DNA of 35,708 bases from Hyphomicrobiaceae bacterium (GTDB lineage: Bacteria; Pseudomonadota; Alphaproteobacteria; Rhizobiales; Xanthobacteraceae). The translations under genes and the position numbers were made by a program. Under the pieces are notes generated by a model. That model did no database searches, was not told the DNA's origin, and was given only the letters and a program-made list of their open reading frames with translations. The stretch covers positions 1 to 35,708 of the forward strand of contig JAJPJB010000019.1 in the NCBI GenBank assembly GCA_021324465.1. The letters are read 5' to 3'. Below are positions 25,475 through 33,421 of this stretch, one piece after another; the first letter of the stretch is position 1; each line of letters starts with the position of its first letter.

Positions 25475-26475
25475 GCGTCGCCCCCCTTCCTCTTTTTGCT
25501 GTTGGCCTTGAGCAATTCGTCACGCGCCGCCGCCGCAGCATCCGACAGCCGCACCGTCACGCGATCCGGCAGCCGCAAATCGATCATTGTGATGTCGCGG
25601 GTCGGAAGCTTCTTGTCGCGATCGAGCGCGACCAGTCGGTTGAGCGCGCCCGGCACGTCGGTTTCCGGCAGGCGCACGTCGATGCCGTTGCTCAGCCGCA
25701 AATTCCAGCGCCGATCGGCCACCAGAACCGAGGCGCGCAGCACCGCGCGGATGTCAGGATAGCGGTCAAGAAAGGTGAGAAAATCCTTGGCCCGTTTTTC
25801 GGCGCCGCGCCCGACCACCAGCGGCAGGCCGAGATAACGATCCTCGACGAACGGCTCGAGCACGGTGCCATCACCGGCGATCACGCTGACATGGCCGTCC
25901 TTCTGCCACAGCGCAAAAGCCCGCCGCTCGGTGACCGTGATCTGCAGGCGATCCGGATAGAGCTTCAGAACCGCCGCATCGGCGATCCAGGGGTTGGCCA
26001 TCAGTCGGGCGCGCGCAGCCTCAGCGTCGAGGAAGAGCAGCGAGGCATTGCCGGTCACGCCGGCGGTGGCCAAAATCTCTTCGCGAGTGACCTCTTTCTC
26101 CCCGGTCAGAGAAATGGCGGCGATACGGAAGCCGAGCGAGTTGGCAGCGACGTCACGCGCCTGTTTGAGCCAATCGATGAGCGCGGGGACATGCTGGCCG
26201 GCGACCGCGCCGTAGCCCAAGGTTGCAACGAGCAGCAGCAGCGACGCCGCGAGGCCAAATCCCTGCGGCAGCGGCAGGCGTGCGAGGCGCTCGGCCATGC
26301 GGATAATCAGGTGCGGATAGGCCAAAATCCAGGGGCGACCCTTGGCGTCATGATGCGCCTGTGGATGATCATGGACGCGCGTCAGGCTCGGCTCGTCAAA
26401 CGGCGCGCCGGTCGCATCCGCAGTTGATTGCCCCGACCGCCTCAGCGATTGGTCGAGGCGTCCTCCACCATCCAT
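25471..26475 (-). CDS. ftsQ: cell division protein FtsQ
   Basis: A single-pass inner-membrane protein of the divisome that links FtsB/L to FtsW/I. The 334-aa product has a cytoplasmic N-terminus (1-70), a membrane helix (about 72-93, FGLAASLLLLVATLGYGAV), a POTRA domain (about 115-185, with ISLTGEKEVTREEIL and PWIADAAVLKLYPDRLQITVTERRAFA) and a beta domain ending DMIDLRLPDRVTVRL-like (TMIDLRLPDRVTVRL). Its ATG at 26475 lies 34 nt inside the 3' end of ddl, and its stop overlaps ftsA by 4 nt. Confidence 0.94.
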   Translation of the reverse strand: MDGGGRLDQSLRRSGQSTADATGAPFDEPSLTRVHDHPQAHHDAKGRPWILAYPHLIIRMAERLARLPLPQGFGLAASLLLLVATLGYGAVAGQHVPALIDWLKQARDVAANSLGFRIAAISLTGEKEVTREEILATAGVTGNASLLFLDAEAARARLMANPWIADAAVLKLYPDRLQITVTERRAFALWQKDGHVSVIAGDGTVLEPFVEDRYLGLPLVVGRGAEKRAKDFLTFLDRYPDIRAVLRASVLVADRRWNLRLSNGIDVRLPETDVPGALNRLVALDRDKKLPTRDITMIDLRLPDRVTVRLSDAAAAARDELLKANSKKRKGGDA

Positions 26476-27355
26476 TGCACCAGCTCATCGAAGGTGATGC
26501 CCGCGTAGGCGGCAAGCTCCGGTACGAGCGAGGTCTCGGTCATCCCCGGTTGTGTGTTGACCTCAAGGCAGATCAGCGTCCCAGTTCCCCGATCGTCATA
26601 GCGAAAGTCTGCACGGCTCACGCCGCGGCAGCCAAGCGCGTTATGGGCAGCCAAGGCGAGTCTGCGGACCTCCTGGTAAACATTCGGTAAAATTGGCGCC
26701 GGCAGCAGATGTTTGGAGCCGCCGGCTGCGTATTTCGCTTCATAGTCGTAAAGCGCGTCGCCGGCACGATCTCGATCACATCGAGCGCGCGGTCGCCCAT
26801 CACCGCGCAGGTCAGCTCCTTGCCCGGCACGTAACGCTCGATCATCACCTTGTCGCCGAACGCCCAGTCGTCGCGAAAGAGCTCCTGCGGCGGATGCGGA
26901 TGCTCCGCGGTGACAATGAAGACGCCAACGCTCGATCCTTCGGCGATCGGCTTGATCACATATGGCGGGGCCATCAGATGCGCTCTGGCCGCCTCGAAGC
27001 GCGACACCACCGTGTCCTCGGCAACCGGAACGTCGCAGGCGCGAAACAGCGCCTTGGCGTAATCCTTCTGCATGGCGAGCGCCGATGCGAGCACGCCGGA
27101 ATGCGAATAGGGAATGTCGAGGACCTCCAAAAGGCCTTGCAGCGTGCCGTCTTCGCCCGGCCGGCCATGCAGCACGTTGAGCGCGACGTCAGGCTTGGCC
27201 GCGGTCAGCACCGTGGCAATGTCGCGCCCGACATCGATTGGCGTGACCCGATAGCCGCGGCGCGTCAGGGCGGCGGCGCAGGCCCGGCCTGAGCGCAGCG
27301 ACACCTCGCGCTCCGCCGACCAGCCCCCCATCAGAACGGCGACGTGCTTGGCCAT
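26442..27355 (-). pseudogene. ddl: D-alanine--D-alanine ligase Ddl, split by a one-base frameshift
   Basis: Ddl joins two D-Ala for peptidoglycan precursors. The 5' frame from 27355 starts MAKHVAVLMGGWSAEREVSLRSG and stays in ATP-grasp homology through PYVIKPIAEGSSVGVFIV and DVIEIVPATRF. It then becomes unrelated (TTMKRNTQPAAP...). The next frame restores the expected YDYEAKYAAGGSKHLLPAP and ends in CLEVNTQPGMTETSLVPE. The break lies at an A3 run (26750-26752, TTT on the coding strand); one extra T restores an intact protein of 304 aa, the normal Ddl length. So this is either a recent deletion or a base-calling error in a homopolymer; all conserved residues survive. Normal Ddl position, overlapping ftsQ. 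Confidence 0.9.
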
Positions 27356-27495
27356 GATTGCGCCGGGTTTCCCAACCGCTGATTCGCAAGGATCACCAAT
27401 AGAATCGACAATTGCGGAAAGGTCGAGGGGCCTGGCGAATGATTGGTCGCAAGCCGCTTTCAGGCCGCTCGGTCATCGGCCCTACGCTGCCTCGG

Positions 27496-28680
27496 CTATT
27501 TGACCATCACCCAGGTCGGCTGCAGGATCGGATAGGCAATCAGCCCGATGATGGCAGTCGCCGCGATCAGCAAGGGATTGCTGATCTTCCAGCGGAACAG
27601 GGCGGCAAGCGAAGCCGCGCCGATCAGCGCCGTGAGCCAGTCGCCAATCGCAACCCGGCCCAGCAGGATGCAGGCGCCGAGAATTGTCCCGATCGCCGCG
27701 CCATAGGCGCCGCGTACGAAGCCTTGCACGTTCGGATTGGCGCCGTAGCGCGCGAGCAGCGGCGCGGCGACGAGAATGAAGATGAAAGATGGGAAGAAGA
27801 TGCCGATCGTTGAAACGAGGGAGCCCCAAAAGCCCGCGACCAGATAGCCGACGAAGGTCGCTGTGATCACCACCGGGCCCGGGCTGATCATGCCAACGGC
27901 GACGGCGATCAGAAACTGGCGCTCGTCCAGCCAGTTATATTGCTGCACCAGGCCCTGCTGGAGAAACGGCACGATTACCAGGCCGCTGCCGAAGGTGAGC
28001 GATCCGGCTTTGAGAAAAAACAGTAGAAGCTTGCCCAAGGTCGAACTTGTCGCGACCGGCGTCAGCACGGCCGGTACGATGGCGGCCTGCAGTCTAGCGC
28101 TGGGCGGGCGGCGGAGCAGGTTGCCGTAATAGAGAATGCCGAGAATGCCGGCGCCGATGAACAGGAAAGCCACTTCGGCCTGCAGGATCACGGTGACGAC
28201 GAGGCAGCCTGCCGCGATCATCCATTGCAGCCAATCTTCCATGCCGAGCTTGGCGAGGCGGTAGCAGGAATGCTGGATCAGCGCGATCACGGCCGGGCTT
28301 ACGCCGTAGAAGATCGCGGTGACCGGCTTGAGATCGCCGAGATAGACATAAAGCGCACCCAAGGCAGCGACGATCACGAAGTTCGGGAAAATGAACGCCC
28401 AGCCGCCGGCCCAGGCGCCCAAGAATCCGCCGCGCAGATAGGAGATGTAAATCCCGACCTGAATCGCCAGCGGCCCGGGCAAGGTCTGGCAGATGGCGAT
28501 CCCCTCGCGCATCTGTTCTTTGGTGAGCCAGCCGCGCTCGCCGACGACTTCGCGCTCCATCTGGCCGACCAGCGCCACCGGTCCGCCAAACCCAAGAAGC
28601 CCAAGACGAAGAAAGTAGACCACTAACTCCGAGAGCGGCGTCGATTTGGCGACTGTTGTGGAAGGGGTATTGCCGTCCAT
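27496..28680 (-). CDS. chrA: chromate efflux transporter ChrA
   Basis: A CHR-family inner-membrane protein that exports chromate. The 394-aa protein is a two-domain (long) form. The N half has FGGP (31-34), the segment VGERGWLTKEQMREGIAICQTLPGP (ending at 70) and GGFLGAWAGGWAFIFPNF; the C half repeats the pattern as FLKAGSLTFGSGLVIVPFLQ, WLDERQFLIAVAVGMISPGP and FPSFIFI. About ten membrane segments are visible. The frame opens at 28728, but ATG 28680 (MDGNTPSTTV) follows GAGGAG and sits at the end of the conserved leader shared with the chrB-type gene. Last gene of the minus-strand chromate block, upstream of ddl. Confidence 0.93.
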   Translation of the reverse strand: MDGNTPSTTVAKSTPLSELVVYFLRLGLLGFGGPVALVGQMEREVVGERGWLTKEQMREGIAICQTLPGPLAIQVGIYISYLRGGFLGAWAGGWAFIFPNFVIVAALGALYVYLGDLKPVTAIFYGVSPAVIALIQHSCYRLAKLGMEDWLQWMIAAGCLVVTVILQAEVAFLFIGAGILGILYYGNLLRRPPSARLQAAIVPAVLTPVATSSTLGKLLLFFLKAGSLTFGSGLVIVPFLQQGLVQQYNWLDERQFLIAVAVGMISPGPVVITATFVGYLVAGFWGSLVSTIGIFFPSFIFILVAAPLLARYGANPNVQGFVRGAYGAAIGTILGACILLGRVAIGDWLTALIGAASLAALFRWKISNPLLIAATAIIGLIAYPILQPTWVMVK

Positions 28681-28765
28681 GCGCAATCTCCTCGACAATG
28701 CGAGTGCTGCGCAGAGCTTGGACGGCAAACCGTCTGACGGGGAGCCTGCGTTTCCCCGGGCGAGA
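28673..28765 (-). promoter_or_regulatory. leader RNA element of chrA (copy A), candidate translational switch
   Basis: On the minus strand, in order: a GGGGA/TCCCC hairpin (28757-28739), a GACGG/CCGTC hairpin (28734-28721), TGCGCA (28713-28708), a CTCG...CGAG hairpin, the SD GAGGAG, then TGCGCATGGACGG (28685-28673) spanning the start codon. CCGTCCA plus, after a 5-nt gap, TGCGCA (28725-28708) can pair along that whole 13-nt start segment, competing with the GACGG/CCGTC hairpin. About nine-tenths of the bases are the same as in the chrB-type leader at 30912-31003. It resembles the chrB RNA motif class described from comparative genomics (from memory, not checked). Confidence 0.75.
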
Positions 28766-28830
28766 TATTACGTGACCGCCGGGTTTGCGGCAAGACGCTC
28801 TGCCTCATCAATCCTGGCGAGGGCGCGATT

Positions 28831-29748
28831 TCAGCTTCTGCTATTGGCCATTCTGTCCAGGGCGGAGCGCAGTCCTTTGGCGAGCTTGATAGCGTCGTCG
28901 TTCGCCCAGAAATGCATGAAGAACAGCCGCGGCTGTTCGTCGAGCATGTGGCTGTGCAAGGCTGTAACTTCGATGCTGCTGGCGCGCAATTCCTTGATGA
29001 CAGCATTCACTTCGTCGGCCGTGAGCACGAAATCGCCGCTGATCGCTGCCTTGCCGCCGCCGGTCGCCTGAAAGCCGATACCGGTCGCTACGCCCAAGGG
29101 GCCGGGTGGCGTGAGCGGCGTTCCGCTCATCGTAATCGTATCGCGGCGCGGAACGCCAAACTGATAGACGCCATCATTAGCCTGGCCCTTGGTGCCGATG
29201 ATCTGATCGAGCCGCGCCGTATCGAGATCGACGGTGGGTGGAGGCGAGGTCGCCGCCGGCGGCGCGAGCGGCGTTTTGCTTTCCGCCAGCCCGCTCCGAA
29301 TAGCCGCTGCCATGTTCAGCGGATCGCCCATGGCGCCGAGATGCATGTAATAGGTCGCTGGATTGGCGCGCAAGAGATGATTGTGGACGGCGGTAATGCC
29401 GATCCCACTCGCGGTCAGCTTCGACATCACCGGGTTGATCTCGCTCTCCAGCAGCACCACGTCGCCCATCACCATGGCTTCGCCATGCATCGGCTTGAAC
29501 GCGACCCAGCCGCCGAGCGCGAGTGCCGGCTTGATGGTTACCCCATCGAGCGTGACCGTCAGGTCGGTCCGCGGAAAGCCGTAGCGATGCGCGTCGCCGG
29601 ATGCCACCGCGGCTTTTCTGCCGATGGCCTCGTCGACCCTTGGCCAATCAATCGCTTGGTTCGTACTTTGGCTCATGCTTTGGCTGCGGGCCGATACGAC
29701 CAAAGCCGGGATCACAGCACCAAACAACAGCGCAGCAACAAGACGCAT
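28831..29748 (-). CDS. exported protein with two DUF1259 repeats
   Basis: A 305-aa protein. Residues 1-23 form a signal peptide (LVAALLFGAVIPALVVSARS). It consists of two DUF1259 units (LppY/LpqO family): about 36-155 and about 175-295. Each unit ends alike: ITAVHNHLL...YYMHLGAMGDP in the first (His122, His124, His136) and VTALHSHML...FFMHFWANDD in the second (His265, His267, His279), possible metal sites. Function is unknown; the family often occurs near chromate or metal resistance genes, in my recollection. The ATG at 29748 is chosen over the GTG at 29751 because AAGGAGG lies 5 nt ahead. It lies within the chromate block. Confidence 0.87.
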   Translation of the reverse strand: MRLVAALLFGAVIPALVVSARSQSMSQSTNQAIDWPRVDEAIGRKAAVASGDAHRYGFPRTDLTVTLDGVTIKPALALGGWVAFKPMHGEAMVMGDVVLLESEINPVMSKLTASGIGITAVHNHLLRANPATYYMHLGAMGDPLNMAAAIRSGLAESKTPLAPPAATSPPPTVDLDTARLDQIIGTKGQANDGVYQFGVPRRDTITMSGTPLTPPGPLGVATGIGFQATGGGKAAISGDFVLTADEVNAVIKELRASSIEVTALHSHMLDEQPRLFFMHFWANDDAIKLAKGLRSALDRMANSRS

Positions 29749-29834
29749 CACGTCCTCCTTCGTTCGGGCTCGCGGTCTTACTCGCGGCCCTGTCTGCGCC
29801 CCTCACCGCATTCAGAACCGATCGTTCGATCCGA

Positions 29835-30020
29835 TCACTTCTTTCCGCAACTCTTCATGCAACGCTCGTACTCCGTCTGGCAGGTCGGCCCCGAATAGTT
29901 GGCATCACAGAGACGTCGTTGGTCGCTGCATTGCTTGCAACTGTTCGACTGCGCTCTCGCGCTTTCGGCCACGGTCCAGCTCGCCACGGCCGTCACGATA
30001 ATGATTGCCACGATCCGCAT
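29835..30020 (-). CDS. small Cys-rich exported protein
   Basis: A 61-aa protein: signal peptide (MRIVAIIIVTAVASWTVAE ... ARAQS, cleavage near 24), then about 37 mature residues with six Cys (28, 31, 38, 47, 54, 58). The Cys-x2-Cys start and Cys-x3-Cys end (CMKSC) would allow disulfides or metal/heme-free thiol binding in the periplasm. GGGAGAGAAG just before the ATG at 30020 is a strong ribosome binding site, supporting a real gene. It lies between the rhodanese-ChrB gene (77-nt gap) and the DUF1259 gene (86-nt gap), all on one strand. I do not recognise a named family. Confidence 0.75.
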   Translation of the reverse strand: MRIVAIIIVTAVASWTVAESARAQSNSCKQCSDQRRLCDANYSGPTCQTEYERCMKSCGKK

Positions 30021-30097
30021 TTTCTTCTCTCCCGGTCTGCCTCCAACCAACACGCAAGCGCGCTCGCCGGCGGCTTCGCTGTGCCCGTGAGCCTGTC

Positions 30098-30919
30098 TCA
30101 GCTTCGGGCCTGAGTGGGCGGCGTCTTTGTTGGCCAATTGTGGGTCTCCGCTTGCAGCGACCGACACCAGGTGTAAAGGGCGTCGTACATCACCATGCCG
30201 TGCGCCAGCATCTCGTGGTCGTTCTGAAAGTTGGCGGAAAGCCCGAGCGAGATTGCAAACAGGCCGCCGCATTGCGGCGCCAGATCGTGGCGCGACGTGT
30301 CGGCGCCGCGCACTATAGTCGCGAGCTGATCGAGCGCGCGATCCTCGATGCCGAAGATTCTCAGGATCGTATCGAACGAGCAGCGCTCGCCTTCGTGCGC
30401 GAAACGGGCGCCTTCGATGTCGTAAGCGATCGCTCCGGTCTTGGCCGCGACCGGAAAAACATCGCCCGTCGGCACATACAAAAACTCGGCTTGCGGATCG
30501 ATGAAGCGGCGAATGAGCCACGGGCAGGCTATGCGGTCGATCTTTGGCCGCTCGCGCGTCACCCATCTGTTGATCGGATCAGGCCAGCGCAGCCGGGTCG
30601 GCAGCCGTCGCTTCATCCAGCCGGCAATGCCCTCGTCGAGGTAGAAACCGCGGCGCCCCGCGCTGCGCAGCGCCGCGGCCGCATCCTGGCTGACACTTTG
30701 ACCTTGCGTGCAATAGGCAATGACTGTTCTGCCGGCAGGCAGGGCGTCCAGCCATTGCGGATCGTTCTCCGGATCGCGACGCACCGCGCCGATGATGAGG
30801 CGATCGTCGGAGTCGAAGTCGTCGCTACGGCGAACATCGACCAGAATTGGCGCGAGGGCCGTGCCCAGGCGCGTATAGAGCTGATCGGGCGAAATCGAGT
30901 GAAAAGCTTTTCCGTCCAT
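30098..30919 (-). CDS. chrB: rhodanese-ChrB fusion, chromate resistance protein
   Basis: A 273-aa protein. Residues 1-105 form a rhodanese domain (LVDVRRSDDFDSDDRLIIGA; active-loop Cys70 in YCTQGQSVS). From about 125 to the end is the ChrB C-terminal domain (PKIDRIACPWLIRRFIDP, FLYVPTGDVF, CSFDTILRIFGI, ATIVRGADTSR). ChrB proteins regulate or assist chromate resistance. Here the usual N-terminal regulator half is replaced by a sulfurtransferase-type domain, so a redox or sulfur-linked role is possible (inference). The frame opens at 30988, but ATG 30919 (MDGKAFHSIS) has GAGGAG ahead and ends the conserved leader. First gene of the chromate block, downstream of murB. Confidence 0.9.
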   Translation of the reverse strand: MDGKAFHSISPDQLYTRLGTALAPILVDVRRSDDFDSDDRLIIGAVRRDPENDPQWLDALPAGRTVIAYCTQGQSVSQDAAAALRSAGRRGFYLDEGIAGWMKRRLPTRLRWPDPINRWVTRERPKIDRIACPWLIRRFIDPQAEFLYVPTGDVFPVAAKTGAIAYDIEGARFAHEGERCSFDTILRIFGIEDRALDQLATIVRGADTSRHDLAPQCGGLFAISLGLSANFQNDHEMLAHGMVMYDALYTWCRSLQAETHNWPTKTPPTQARS

Positions 30920-31003
30920 GCGCAATCTCCTCGGCAAGCGAGTGTTGCGCAGAGCTTGGACGGGAACCGTCTGAAGGGGAGTCTGCATATCCCCTTGCGA
31001 GGG
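30912..31003 (-). promoter_or_regulatory. leader RNA element of the rhodanese-chrB gene (copy B), candidate translational switch
   Basis: Same order as at chrA: GGGGA/TCCCC hairpin (30994-30976), GACGG/CCGTC hairpin (30971-30959) and TGCGCA (30951-30946). Then come a CTCG...CGAG hairpin, GAGGAG, and TGCGCATGGACGG (30924-30912) across the ATG. CCGTCCA and TGCGCA (30963-30946) can pair with the start segment instead. Loop bases and two single-base gaps differ from copy A, while every stem base is kept, and the first two codons after ATG (Asp-Gly) are the same in both genes. Confidence 0.78.
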
Positions 31004-31094
31004 ACTCTAGATCGGTGAATCTGCGGCCGCAAGTGGAAAAAGCAGGTTTTCGCCGGCACCGGCGAGAACTTCGCGCGAGGGCGGCACGAGAGTC

Positions 31095-32012
31095 TCAGCT
31101 CGGGGTTCCGATCCGTTTGATCTCCCATTCGAGATCGACGCCGCAACTTTCCTTCACGCGTCGGCGCACGGTTTCGCCCAGAGTCTCGATTTCGGCGGCG
31201 CTGGCATTGCCGAGATTGATCAAAAAGTTGCAATGCATCTGCGAGACCTGCGCATCGCCGACGCGCAAGCCCCGGCAGCCGGCGGCATCGATCAGCTCCC
31301 AGGCTTTGTGGCCGGTTGGATTCTTGAAGGTCGAGCCGCCGGTGCGGCTCTTGATCGGCTGCGTCGCTTCACGCGATTCGGTGATCTTCTCCATCTCGGC
31401 GGCGATCGCGGCGGAATCGCCGCGCTCGCCGGCAAATATGGCTTGCGTGAAAATGTAATCGTCCGGCGCACCACAATGACGATAGCTGTAATGCATGTCG
31501 GCGTTGCTCAGCACATGGATGCGCCCCCGGCGATCGACCGCGCGGGCCTCGATCAAGGCGTCCTTGGTCTCGCGCCCGTAGGCGCCGCCATTCATGCGTA
31601 GCGCGCCGCCGACAGCGCCGGGAATGCCACGCATGAAGGACAGGCCGGCAAGGCCGGCTTCCTGCGCCGCGCGCGCGATTTTGACGTCGGGCACCGCAGC
31701 GCCGGCGCGAAGGCGCATGCCTTCGACTGCGATTTCGCCAAAGCCGCGGCCGAGTCTGATCACGGCGCCCGCGATGCCGCCGTCGCGCACGATCAGATTG
31801 GAGCCGAGGCCGATTACCGTGACGGCGATATCGGCTGGCAGATTTTTCAGAAAGTAGGCGAGATCGGCTTCATCCTCCGGCATGAACAAAAGCTGCGCCG
31901 GCCCGCCGACGCGAAACCAGGTCAGCTCCGCCAAAGGCTGGTTGGCGAGGAGCCTTCCGCGCAGCTGCGGCATATGCTTTTTGATATCGGGGACCAAGTC
32001 GGCGAACGGCAT
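31095..32012 (-). CDS. murB: UDP-N-acetylenolpyruvoylglucosamine reductase MurB
   Basis: An FAD enzyme reducing enolpyruvyl-UDP-GlcNAc to UDP-MurNAc. The 305-aa protein has the FAD motifs [12 protein letters not shown] (68-79) and [22 protein letters not shown] (125-146), the proton-donor segment GSTFKNP (226-232, Ser227) and the C-terminal domain. Type IIa form, as in other alphaproteobacteria. The ATG at 32012 shares its A with the murC TGA (TGATG), so start and coupling are clear. After murB the normal cluster order is broken by the chromate genes. Confidence 0.95.
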
Positions 32013-33421
32013 CAGCTGCTTCCGGCGCTCGCCAGTTCGCCCGGCAGCGCATAGGCCCATTGTGTGATCGAGCCGGCGCCGAGGCAGACGACATAATCGC
32101 CGGGCTGCGCCATGCCGGCGATCAGTAAAGCGAGCCGTTCGGGATTCTCGAGCGGCACCACCTGACGATGGCCGTGGGTGCGCAAACCCTGTACGAGCGA
32201 TTCGCGATCGGCGCCGGGAATCGGCGCTTCGCCTGCCGAATAGACATTGGCGACGATCACCACATCGGCATCGTTGAAGCAGGTGCAGAATTCCTCGAAC
32301 AGTGACGCGAGCCGCGTATAGCGATGCGGCTGTACCACGGCAATCACCTGTCCCTTGGTTGATTCACGCGCCGCTTTGAGCACAGCGGCGATCTCGACCG
32401 GATGATGGCCGTAATCATCGACGATGGTGACACCGTTCCAAAGCCCGGTGCGGGTGAAGCGGCGCCGTACGCCGCCGAATTTGGCCAGCGCATCGCGGAT
32501 CACGTCGTCGGCAACGCCCAGCTCGTGGGCGACAGCGACGGCGGCGGTGGCATTGAGCGCATTGTGCCGCCCCGGCATCGGCAGCGCGAGATTCCTGATT
32601 TCATGCGGCGGCCGGCCGCCGCGCTCATTGAGCACGATCGTGAACAGTGAGGTACCGCCTGCATGCGAAACATCGAGCAGCCGCACATCGGCCTGCGGAT
32701 TTTCCCCGTAAGTGATGATGCGGTGATCCTGAATGTGACCGACGAGCTTCTGCACCACGGGGTGATCGGTGCACATCACCGAGAAACCGTAGAACGGCAC
32801 GTTCTCGACAAAGGCGCGAAACGCGTCCTGCACGGCCTCGAACGTCTTGAAGTGATCGAGATGCTCCGGATCGACATTGGTGACGATGGCGATATCGGCC
32901 GGCAATTTCAGGAACGTGCCGTCCGACTCGTCGGCCTCGACCACCATCCACTCGCCGGCGCCGAGCCGGGCATTGGTGCCATAGGCATTGATGATGCCGC
33001 CATTGATGACGGTCGGATCGAAGCCGCCGGCATCGAGCAGTGCCGCCACCATCGACGTCGTCGTGGTCTTGCCGTGCGTGCCGGCAATGGCGACGCAGCT
33101 TTTCAGCCGCATCAGTTCGGCGAGCATCTCGGCGCGCCGCACCACCGGCAGGCGCTGCGTGCGCGCCGCAACGAGTTCCGGATTGTCGGACCTGATCGCG
33201 GAGGAGACCACGACCACGCGCGCGCCATCCAGATTCTCGGCGGCATGCCCGATCGCGACCCTTACGCCCTTGTCGCGCAGCCGTTTGACATTGGCGCTGT
33301 CGGTCTGGTCCGAGCCCTGCACGGTATGGCCGAGATTGAGCAGCACTTCGGCAATGCCGCTCATGCCGATGCCGCCGATGCCGATGAAATGCACCGGCCC
33401 GATATCGCGCGGCAGTTTCAT
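32012..33421 (-). CDS. murC: UDP-N-acetylmuramate--L-alanine ligase MurC
   Basis: The Mur ligase that adds the first residue of the stem peptide. The 469-aa product has the N-terminal Rossmann domain ([17 protein letters not shown]), the P-loop GTHGKTTTT (114-122), the central-domain [12 protein letters not shown], and the C-terminal [15 protein letters not shown] and [11 protein letters not shown]. The frame opens upstream at 33454, but the ATG at 33421 ([10 protein letters not shown]) has GGGGAG 6 nt ahead and standard N-terminus. murG ends 35 nt upstream and murB overlaps its stop. Confidence 0.96.

Follow-up and report, generated by a model that had tools for sequence, protein, structure and literature searches.

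Two chrB-b leader RNAs in one chromate cassette and a candidate translational switch that reaches into the coding sequence

chrB RNAs and the two leaders of the window

The chrB-b RNA class is already known, and is described in Rfam (RF03086) by a model of 49 positions with two hairpins, P1 and P2 (GACGG/CCGUC), and a tail, CAAGCNCUGC, whose CUGC can pair with GCAG in the P1 loop. The model ends at CUGC, without an expression platform. In work on structure prediction, chrB RNA is named to illustrate a pseudoknot that had newly come to light, its version being left unspecified in the accessible part of that source (PMC7657543). In the literature searched, which excluded the founding paper of the motif, we recognized no description of an expression platform or a start helix for chrB RNAs, and no ligand was named. 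Here we analyse a stretch of 35,708 nucleotides from a Hyphomicrobiaceae bacterium (contig JAJPJB010000019.1, positions 1 to 35,708; hereafter the window), in which the gene of a chromate transporter, chrA, and a rhodanese-ChrB_C gene (rhodanese-chrB) lie on the minus strand, each preceded by a leader of this class. What is newly added is a predicted alternative helix that spans the start codon and is supported by covariation with coding bases.

Related systems have been described. In the chrB-a RNA (RF03078), the pseudoknot strand likewise overlaps a hairpin of the GCGUCC/GGACGC type just before the AUG, as judged from the model and from sequences inspected by eye (ten of eleven had a similar layout, the other being out of register). 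The chrB-a hairpin stops before the AUG, however, whereas the helix proposed for the window leaders would continue through it into codons 2 and 3. Against the chrB-a cut-off of 43.9 bits, the rhodanese-chrB leader scores 23.6 bits, and the chrA leader is not listed at E-values up to 1. In SAM-II, according to the accessible text of one account, a pseudoknotted aptamer near the start is also thought to decide access to the ribosome site (PMC9373788). There the bound pseudoknot hides the Shine-Dalgarno (SD) sequence, whereas here the pseudoknot would free the start, with coding bases placed in the alternative helix. The ChrB protein of Ochrobactrum tritici is a DNA-binding regulator, and its operator, as given in the accessible part of that source, is AT-rich, unlike the window leaders (PMC3817168).

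By the features tested, both window leaders are chrB-b RNAs, a membership that the original prediction had offered as a possibility. A cmscan search placed both above the RF03086 gathering cut-off (Table 1). P1 and P2 are present in both without any marked non-standard pair, as are the CAAGC-CUGC tail and the letters of the GCAG/CUGC pseudoknot, and the local GACGG/CCGTC hairpin noticed earlier is identical to P2 of the Rfam model. The proposed start helix and the hairpin at the SD lie beyond the end of that model. In their own genome (4.57 Mb), the two leaders are the only RF03086 matches reported. They agree in 76 of 87 aligned columns from the motif start to codon 3, a likeness placed beyond chance by the Rfam E-values for the window (Table 1), and the genes behind them are unrelated, as had been claimed. 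Every segment that the original prediction had named was found in place on the minus strand when the coordinates were re-read. A CTCG/CGAG hairpin had been said to abut the SD; the hairpin is there, but its 3' strand, CGAG, overlaps GAGGAG. The observation itself is confirmed, and its interpretation as a two-state arrangement at the start codon is supported by the comparisons that follow.

A predicted helix across the start codon

The comparisons draw on 196 distinct chrB-b matches, not all of which reach the family cut-off, from 119 genomes in 60 genera. Whole-genome searches with RF03086, counting matches at E-values up to 0.001, were positive in 34 of 385 genomes of the class, 31 of 397 of the order and 54 of 198 of the family, and in 14 of 18 and 2 of 10 genomes from the orders of two other matches; these sets overlap. 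Filters were stricter in the class-wide searches, and weak matches were possibly missed there. Removal of five matches without CAA in the tail (leaving 191) and of six more without a usable frame gave 185, and 179 were left once six whose start lay nearer than 22 bases were dropped. Starts were called by a rule of our own (ATG preferred, an SD, and a frame of at least 60 codons or open at the contig end). Proteins were clustered by single linkage at E 1e-5, and homologous contrasts were made on disjoint pairs, in which shared branches are possible.

In the predicted alternative helix, the 3' strand of P2 with the next two bases, CCGUCCA, pairs with UGGACGG across the AUG and codons 2 and 3. 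The two sides vary together, as in CCAUCCA/UGGAUGG, UCGCCCA/UGGGCGA and GUAUCCA/UGGAUAC. The start is followed by G in 122 of the 185 matches, giving UGG opposite a near-constant CCA. At the four variable positions of these 122 starts, a mean of 2.93 are paired, compared with 2.31 (standard deviation 0.06) after shuffling, and none of 20,000 shuffles reached the observed value. The corresponding figures are 2.71 against 2.23 with one row per genus and sequence (94 rows), and 2.38 against 1.98 with one row per distinct sequence (70 rows); sliding the register by one to three bases lowers the pairing to 0.9-1.3. In 36 disjoint homologous protein pairs whose leaders differ in each of the two strands, pairing is better for the own combination in 22 cases and for the swapped one in 3, with 11 ties. 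Mismatched changes between the CCGUCC strand and the start had been named in advance as a possible refutation; matched changes proved commoner than in shuffles or homologous swaps.

A fully paired 7-mer was found between -22 and +18 of the start in 59 of 179 matches, as against 12% of controls in which the strand came from another genus. Of these 59, 55 begin at the U of the called start, one lies elsewhere, and three begin on an AUG four bases upstream that opens a frame of 49, 62 or 24 codons, so that the start calls of these three are uncertain. Pairing is full in 55 of 185 matches and extends to at least six of the seven positions in 87. Three leaders (L145, L149 and L130) carry TTGGCGAA directly ahead of the ATG, facing a UCGCCCA strand, which suggests that the helix can also be placed ahead of the start, in the manner of chrB-a.

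RNAalifold was run on 64 leader pieces, chosen out of 100 eligible ones so that each genus and protein cluster was represented once; eligibility required moderate lengths and a UGG start, by which the first three pairs are set in advance. Unprompted, it returned five start-helix pairs only (columns 3-7 with 56-60), at a weak energy of -2.66 kcal/mol. One of these pairs is G-C in 34 rows, A-U in 15 and G-U in 7, and the next is U-A in 54 and C-G in 4. None of 500 shuffles, a control that keeps relatedness in, reached the whole-structure covariation score. Over 121 matches, the cells of the start helix comprise 694 Watson-Crick pairs, 32 G-U pairs (a count without a chance level) and 121 mismatches. 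On this comparative evidence, the start-codon-spanning structure itself is very probably real.

A second alternative pairing joins UGC of the pseudoknot strand plus GCA to UGCGCA, which ends on the A of the AUG. Because this pre-AUG hairpin is out of register for TauE-type leaders in the 64-row alignment, it was judged by energy contrasts. The energy of the duplex between CUGC plus 8 bases and the 16 bases preceding the start favoured the own combination by over 1 kcal/mol in 52 of 70 homologous pairs and the swapped one in 7, the other 11 lying within 1 kcal/mol. In minimum free energy (MFE) folds from the shared strand to codon 3, at least two of the four pseudoknot bases are paired before the AUG in 162 of 179 matches. 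Pairing just ahead of the AUG, foreseen for TGCGCA in the window leaders, is thus conserved across homologues.

The competing aptamer pairs also recur. The loop and its own tail pair fully in 177 of the 196 matches (taking the best 4-mer in the loop region and allowing G-U), as GCAG/CUGC (113), GCGG/CCGC (28), GCGG/CUGC (15), GCGA/UCGC (4) and GCCG/CGGC (3), and full pairing falls to 800 of 1960 combinations (41%) when the tail differs and comes from another genus. CAAG is near-invariant (185 of 196 tails). Both structures, the aptamer and the start-locked form, are conserved across genera.

The start helix reaches a synonymous position of the reading frame. Asp codon 2 is GAC in 41 matches and GAT in 10 when its partner base is G, and GAC in 7 and GAT in 32 when the partner is A (Fisher p 3e-9); with one count per genus and combination, the figures are 21/7 and 6/13 (p 0.006). 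Elsewhere in these genes, GAT usage is 0.40 and 0.39, and internal codon usage therefore does not explain why the Asp codon tracks its partner. One order, with 15 matches, has eight that pair fully through other residues: five Met-Asp-Thr (GUAUCCA), two Met-Glu-Thr (GUUUCCA) and one Met-Asp-Ala (GCGUCCA); the other seven are paired at six (one), five (four) or four (two) of the seven positions.

Of the 87 matches with at least six pairs, 47 start Met-Asp-Gly, in nine protein clusters. Through a representative, Pfam identified six of these as ChrA, rhodanese-ChrB, TauE, an MFS transporter, a protein that weakly matches lectin-like and glycosidase-like families, and DUF3182; one gave no match in the Pfam scan, and two are short frames, possibly not genes, that were left out of it. 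As a crude control, the best 30 loci of a longer list of ChrA loci fetched by protein family were searched over the 150 bases before the frame: a TGGAYGG start was found in none of the 30 (7 of them without a candidate start), and a tail-like word in 3. The second ChrA of the window's own genome appears to start Met-Asp-Gln. Since the helix spans the AUG and codons 2 and 3, it would explain the N-terminal residues common to unrelated proteins, and this explanation of Met-Asp-Gly, already put forward in the original prediction, is likely. A leader peptide or upstream in-frame start was considered separately and rejected. The frame is open to the 5' end of the motif in 47 of the 55 fully paired matches, 31 of the 47 having an in-frame ATG, GTG or TTG; in the larger families, however, the motif-to-start distance covers all three residues modulo 3, and the leader is therefore not a conserved N-terminal extension.

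Table 1. Positions of the two genes and of their leader elements in the window (all on the minus strand)
Feature	Position	Strand	Basis or remark
chrA, chromate transporter, starts Met-Asp-Gly	27496..28680	-	PF02417, 269.4 bits; TIGR00937, 318.6 bits
chrA ATG	28680-28678	-	
chrA leader: chrB-b aptamer (RF03086): P1, pseudoknot loop GCAG, P2, tail ending CUGC	28711..28758	-	cmscan 65.8 bits, gathering cut-off 36.5, E 1.6e-11
chrA leader: P2 5' strand GACGG; identical in sequence to codon 2 plus bases 1 and 2 of codon 3	28730..28734	-	Rfam structure line; sequence re-read
chrA leader: shared strand CCGTCCA (P2 3' strand plus CA); partner P2 5' strand or start region	28719..28725	-	
chrA leader: P2 hairpin GACGG/CCGTC	28734-28730 with 28725-28721	-	Rfam chrB-b model
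chrA leader: pseudoknot 3' strand CUGC, overlapping TGCGCA (28713-28708)	28711..28714	-	partner GCAG 28749-28746
chrA leader: SD/start hairpin TGCGCA, CTCG, CGAG, TGCGCA	28680..28713	-	MFE fold; homologous contrasts for the equivalent pairing
chrA leader: CTCG	28704-28701	-	
chrA leader: CGAG	28694-28691	-	
chrA leader: SD GAGGAG	28693-28688	-	
chrA leader: UGGACGG (last two bases of AUG, codon 2, two bases of codon 3)	28673..28679	-	partner CCGUCCA
chrA leader: TGCGCATGGACGG over start region	28685-28673	-	
rhodanese-ChrB_C gene, starts Met-Asp-Gly	30098..30919	-	PF00581 and PF09828
rhodanese-chrB ATG	30919-30917	-	
rhodanese-chrB leader: chrB-b aptamer (RF03086)	30949..30995	-	cmscan 63.1 bits, E 7.3e-11
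rhodanese-chrB leader: P2 5' strand GACGG	30967..30971	-	Rfam structure line; sequence re-read
rhodanese-chrB leader: shared strand CCGTCCA	30957..30963	-	
rhodanese-chrB leader: P2 hairpin GACGG/CCGTC	30971-30967 with 30963-30959	-	Rfam chrB-b model
rhodanese-chrB leader: TGCGCA	30951-30946	-	
rhodanese-chrB leader: SD/start hairpin TGCGCA, CTCG, CGAG, TGCGCA; CGAG overlaps SD GAGGAG (30932-30927)	30919..30951	-	MFE fold
rhodanese-chrB leader: UGGACGG across AUG and codons 2-3	30912..30918	-	
rhodanese-chrB leader: TGCGCATGGACGG over start region	30924-30912	-	

A proposed switch and other readings of the leaders

We propose that each leader is a chrB-b RNA working as a translational switch. 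In the aptamer form, P1, P2 (GACGG/CCGUC) and the GCAG/CUGC pseudoknot would occupy both shared strands and release the start region. In the start-locked form, CCGUCCA would pair with UGGACGG over the AUG and codons 2 and 3, the pseudoknot strand and the bases after it would pair just upstream of the AUG, and the SD and the start codon would be held together in a single long stem. Because both shared strands overlap, the two states tend to be mutually exclusive; comparison of homologues shows that both sets of predicted pairs recur across genera, and that the start helix varies in step with coding bases, the synonymous position among them. A ligand or stress signal, we infer, favours the aptamer form and turns translation on, as expected for resistance genes, by leaving the start open, with no terminator involved. 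We put the probability of the full model, in which the aptamer form frees the start codon, at roughly 0.6; ligand and direction are the inferred parts of it. The 5' strand of P2 would be a built-in copy of codons 2 and 3 competing with the real ones. On balance we lean, if only slightly, to the broader view that this strand is a decoy, the shared strand picking either decoy or real start; that at least six unrelated families, belonging to a wider stress regulon, have had Met-Asp-Gly or a matched variant (such as Met-Asp-Thr or Met-Glu-Thr) imposed on them by the RNA; and that leader and first three codons move together as a cassette.

The free folds of both window leaders are start-locked (-47.9 and -43.5 kcal/mol). 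Folds with P2 forced reach -38.4 and -36.4 kcal/mol, which is 9.5 and 7.1 above the start-locked folds with the pseudoknot not counted, and the gap is 7.6 and 4.8 kcal/mol with shorter flanks. In the fully paired class, the MFE fold from the motif to 40 bases past the start is start-locked in 48 of 55 matches, contains P2 in 2 and takes another form in 5. The start-locked fold lies below the P2-forced one in 41 of 44 comparable leaders, by a median of 5.0 kcal/mol, again leaving the pseudoknot out of account.

Several results weigh against the switch model. When P2 is forced and the pseudoknot strands are reserved, the SD of both window leaders is largely paired to neighbouring sequence, so that energy models alone do not free the ribosome site. 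Fewer than six of the seven start pairs are present in 98 of 185 matches, among them 29 of 63 ChrB leaders and 13 of 16 Cj0069 leaders, and all four MATE leaders lack the start helix. Three of the 25 decisive homologous contrasts favour the swapped pairing. Codons 1 to 3 taken from another genus still form at least four pairs in 50% of folds, compared with 72% (129 of 179) for the own codons, because CCA/UGG is near constant. The pseudoknot is less sharply tested, since in the 63 matches with a tail other than CUGC the own tail pairs fully in 47 and CUGC would do so in 47 as well (G-U allowed). Finally, the genes behind the leaders include MATE, MFS, ornithine-cyclodeaminase-like and Cj0069-type proteins, a diversity that makes chromate doubtful as the ligand.

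The same two structures could also work with the opposite sign, the ligand stabilizing the start-locked form and turning the gene off. The direction is unreadable from sequence, and the start helix belongs to the conserved RNA, just as the chrB-a model in Rfam holds its pre-AUG hairpin as a conserved part. The CAAG tail and the P2 and pseudoknot strands, however, are among the most conserved bases and are part of the form incompatible with start locking, and induction by the signal is the norm for resistance and export genes; we consider this sign unlikely. A leader could instead do without a small molecule and act as a translation damper, fixed or dependent on a protein, temperature or the ribosome, with P2 and the pseudoknot as a folding path. 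The diversity of the downstream genes, the silence of the searched literature on a ligand and the greater stability of the start-locked fold in 48 of 55 fully paired matches would all suit a damper, yet the compactness of the pseudoknot and the near invariance of its unpaired bases (CAAG in 185 of 196) appear typical of ligand-binding aptamers, and two alternative conserved states argue for switching. A damper thus seems quite unlikely.

That the repeats are DNA operators for a ChrB regulator, and not RNA structure, is highly improbable. The O. tritici ChrB does bind its own promoter region at an imperfect inverted repeat, but in the accessible part of that source the repeat is AT-rich and of different sequence (PMC3817168), while in the leaders several separate strands, including those of the pseudoknot, pair in a fixed order and the start helix contains G-U pairs (32, as counted above). 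Recent duplication of a promoter-leader segment combined with protein-level constraint on Met-Asp-Gly is hardly credible: it would fit the identity of the two leaders (76 of 87 columns), but the leader nearest to each belongs to a different gene and to another genus, Met-Asp-Gly occurs on unrelated families yet on none of the 30 control ChrA loci (7 unresolved), and the synonymous site follows its RNA partner. The translational switch turned on through the aptamer form remains the reading we prefer.

Spread of the leaders and their surroundings

At least two chrB-b matches occur in 46 of the 119 genomes, and two within 5 kb on one contig in 18, eight of which have TauE followed by ChrB. The original prediction had stressed the use of one leader twice at a single locus; two are indeed present, but such pairs recur elsewhere and the window pair is not mutually closest. 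Each window leader best matches the leader of a lectin-like gene in another genus, and recent local duplication was rejected for this reason. The window leaders look like members of a dispersed leader family and not like a fresh local copy.

Leaders (L139, L040, L019, L131 and L080) also precede MATE, ornithine-cyclodeaminase-like, Cj0069-family, DUF3182 and lectin-like genes. The chrB-b regulon may be wider than chromate, and the ligand may be something else. One genome has ten chrB-b matches (L131, contig G949:C169, and L123, G949:C388, among them), five of the ten on a single 11-kb contig and on both strands, and some of its leaders stand ahead of frames unlike genes. The leaders may multiply as cassettes.

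In the window, a PF07485 (DUF1529/DUF1259) gene sits between chrA and the rhodanese-chrB gene. The chr genes are flanked by what we take to be murB and ddl (window 26600-32060, minus strand), presumably part of a division and cell-wall cluster, and the chromate cassette seems to have been inserted between these two genes of a usually tight cluster. The gene that we take, from its sequence and position, to be ddl (D-alanine-D-alanine ligase; 26300-27355, minus strand) appears in this assembly as two pieces, in different frames, through an assembly error or damage to the gene. A fragment of an alphaproteobacterial permuted transfer-messenger RNA, cut by the window end, occupies positions 1-204 of the plus strand (181.5 bits). 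Terminator-type control was considered and set aside: a crude scan of 27400-31300 gave 4 terminator-like sites, where 3.3 would be expected, and none of the 4 lies at the leaders. The crude scan of the same interval found no sigma-70 promoter-like site.

For this class of RNA, the start helix would provide a concrete, testable expression platform and show where to mutate. The search for the ligand is narrowed by the families found downstream (chromate transporter, rhodanese-ChrB, TauE, MFS, MATE, cyclodeaminase-like and Cj0069-type). More broadly, the comparison points to a regulatory RNA that may shape protein N-termini and the choice of synonymous codons across unrelated genes.

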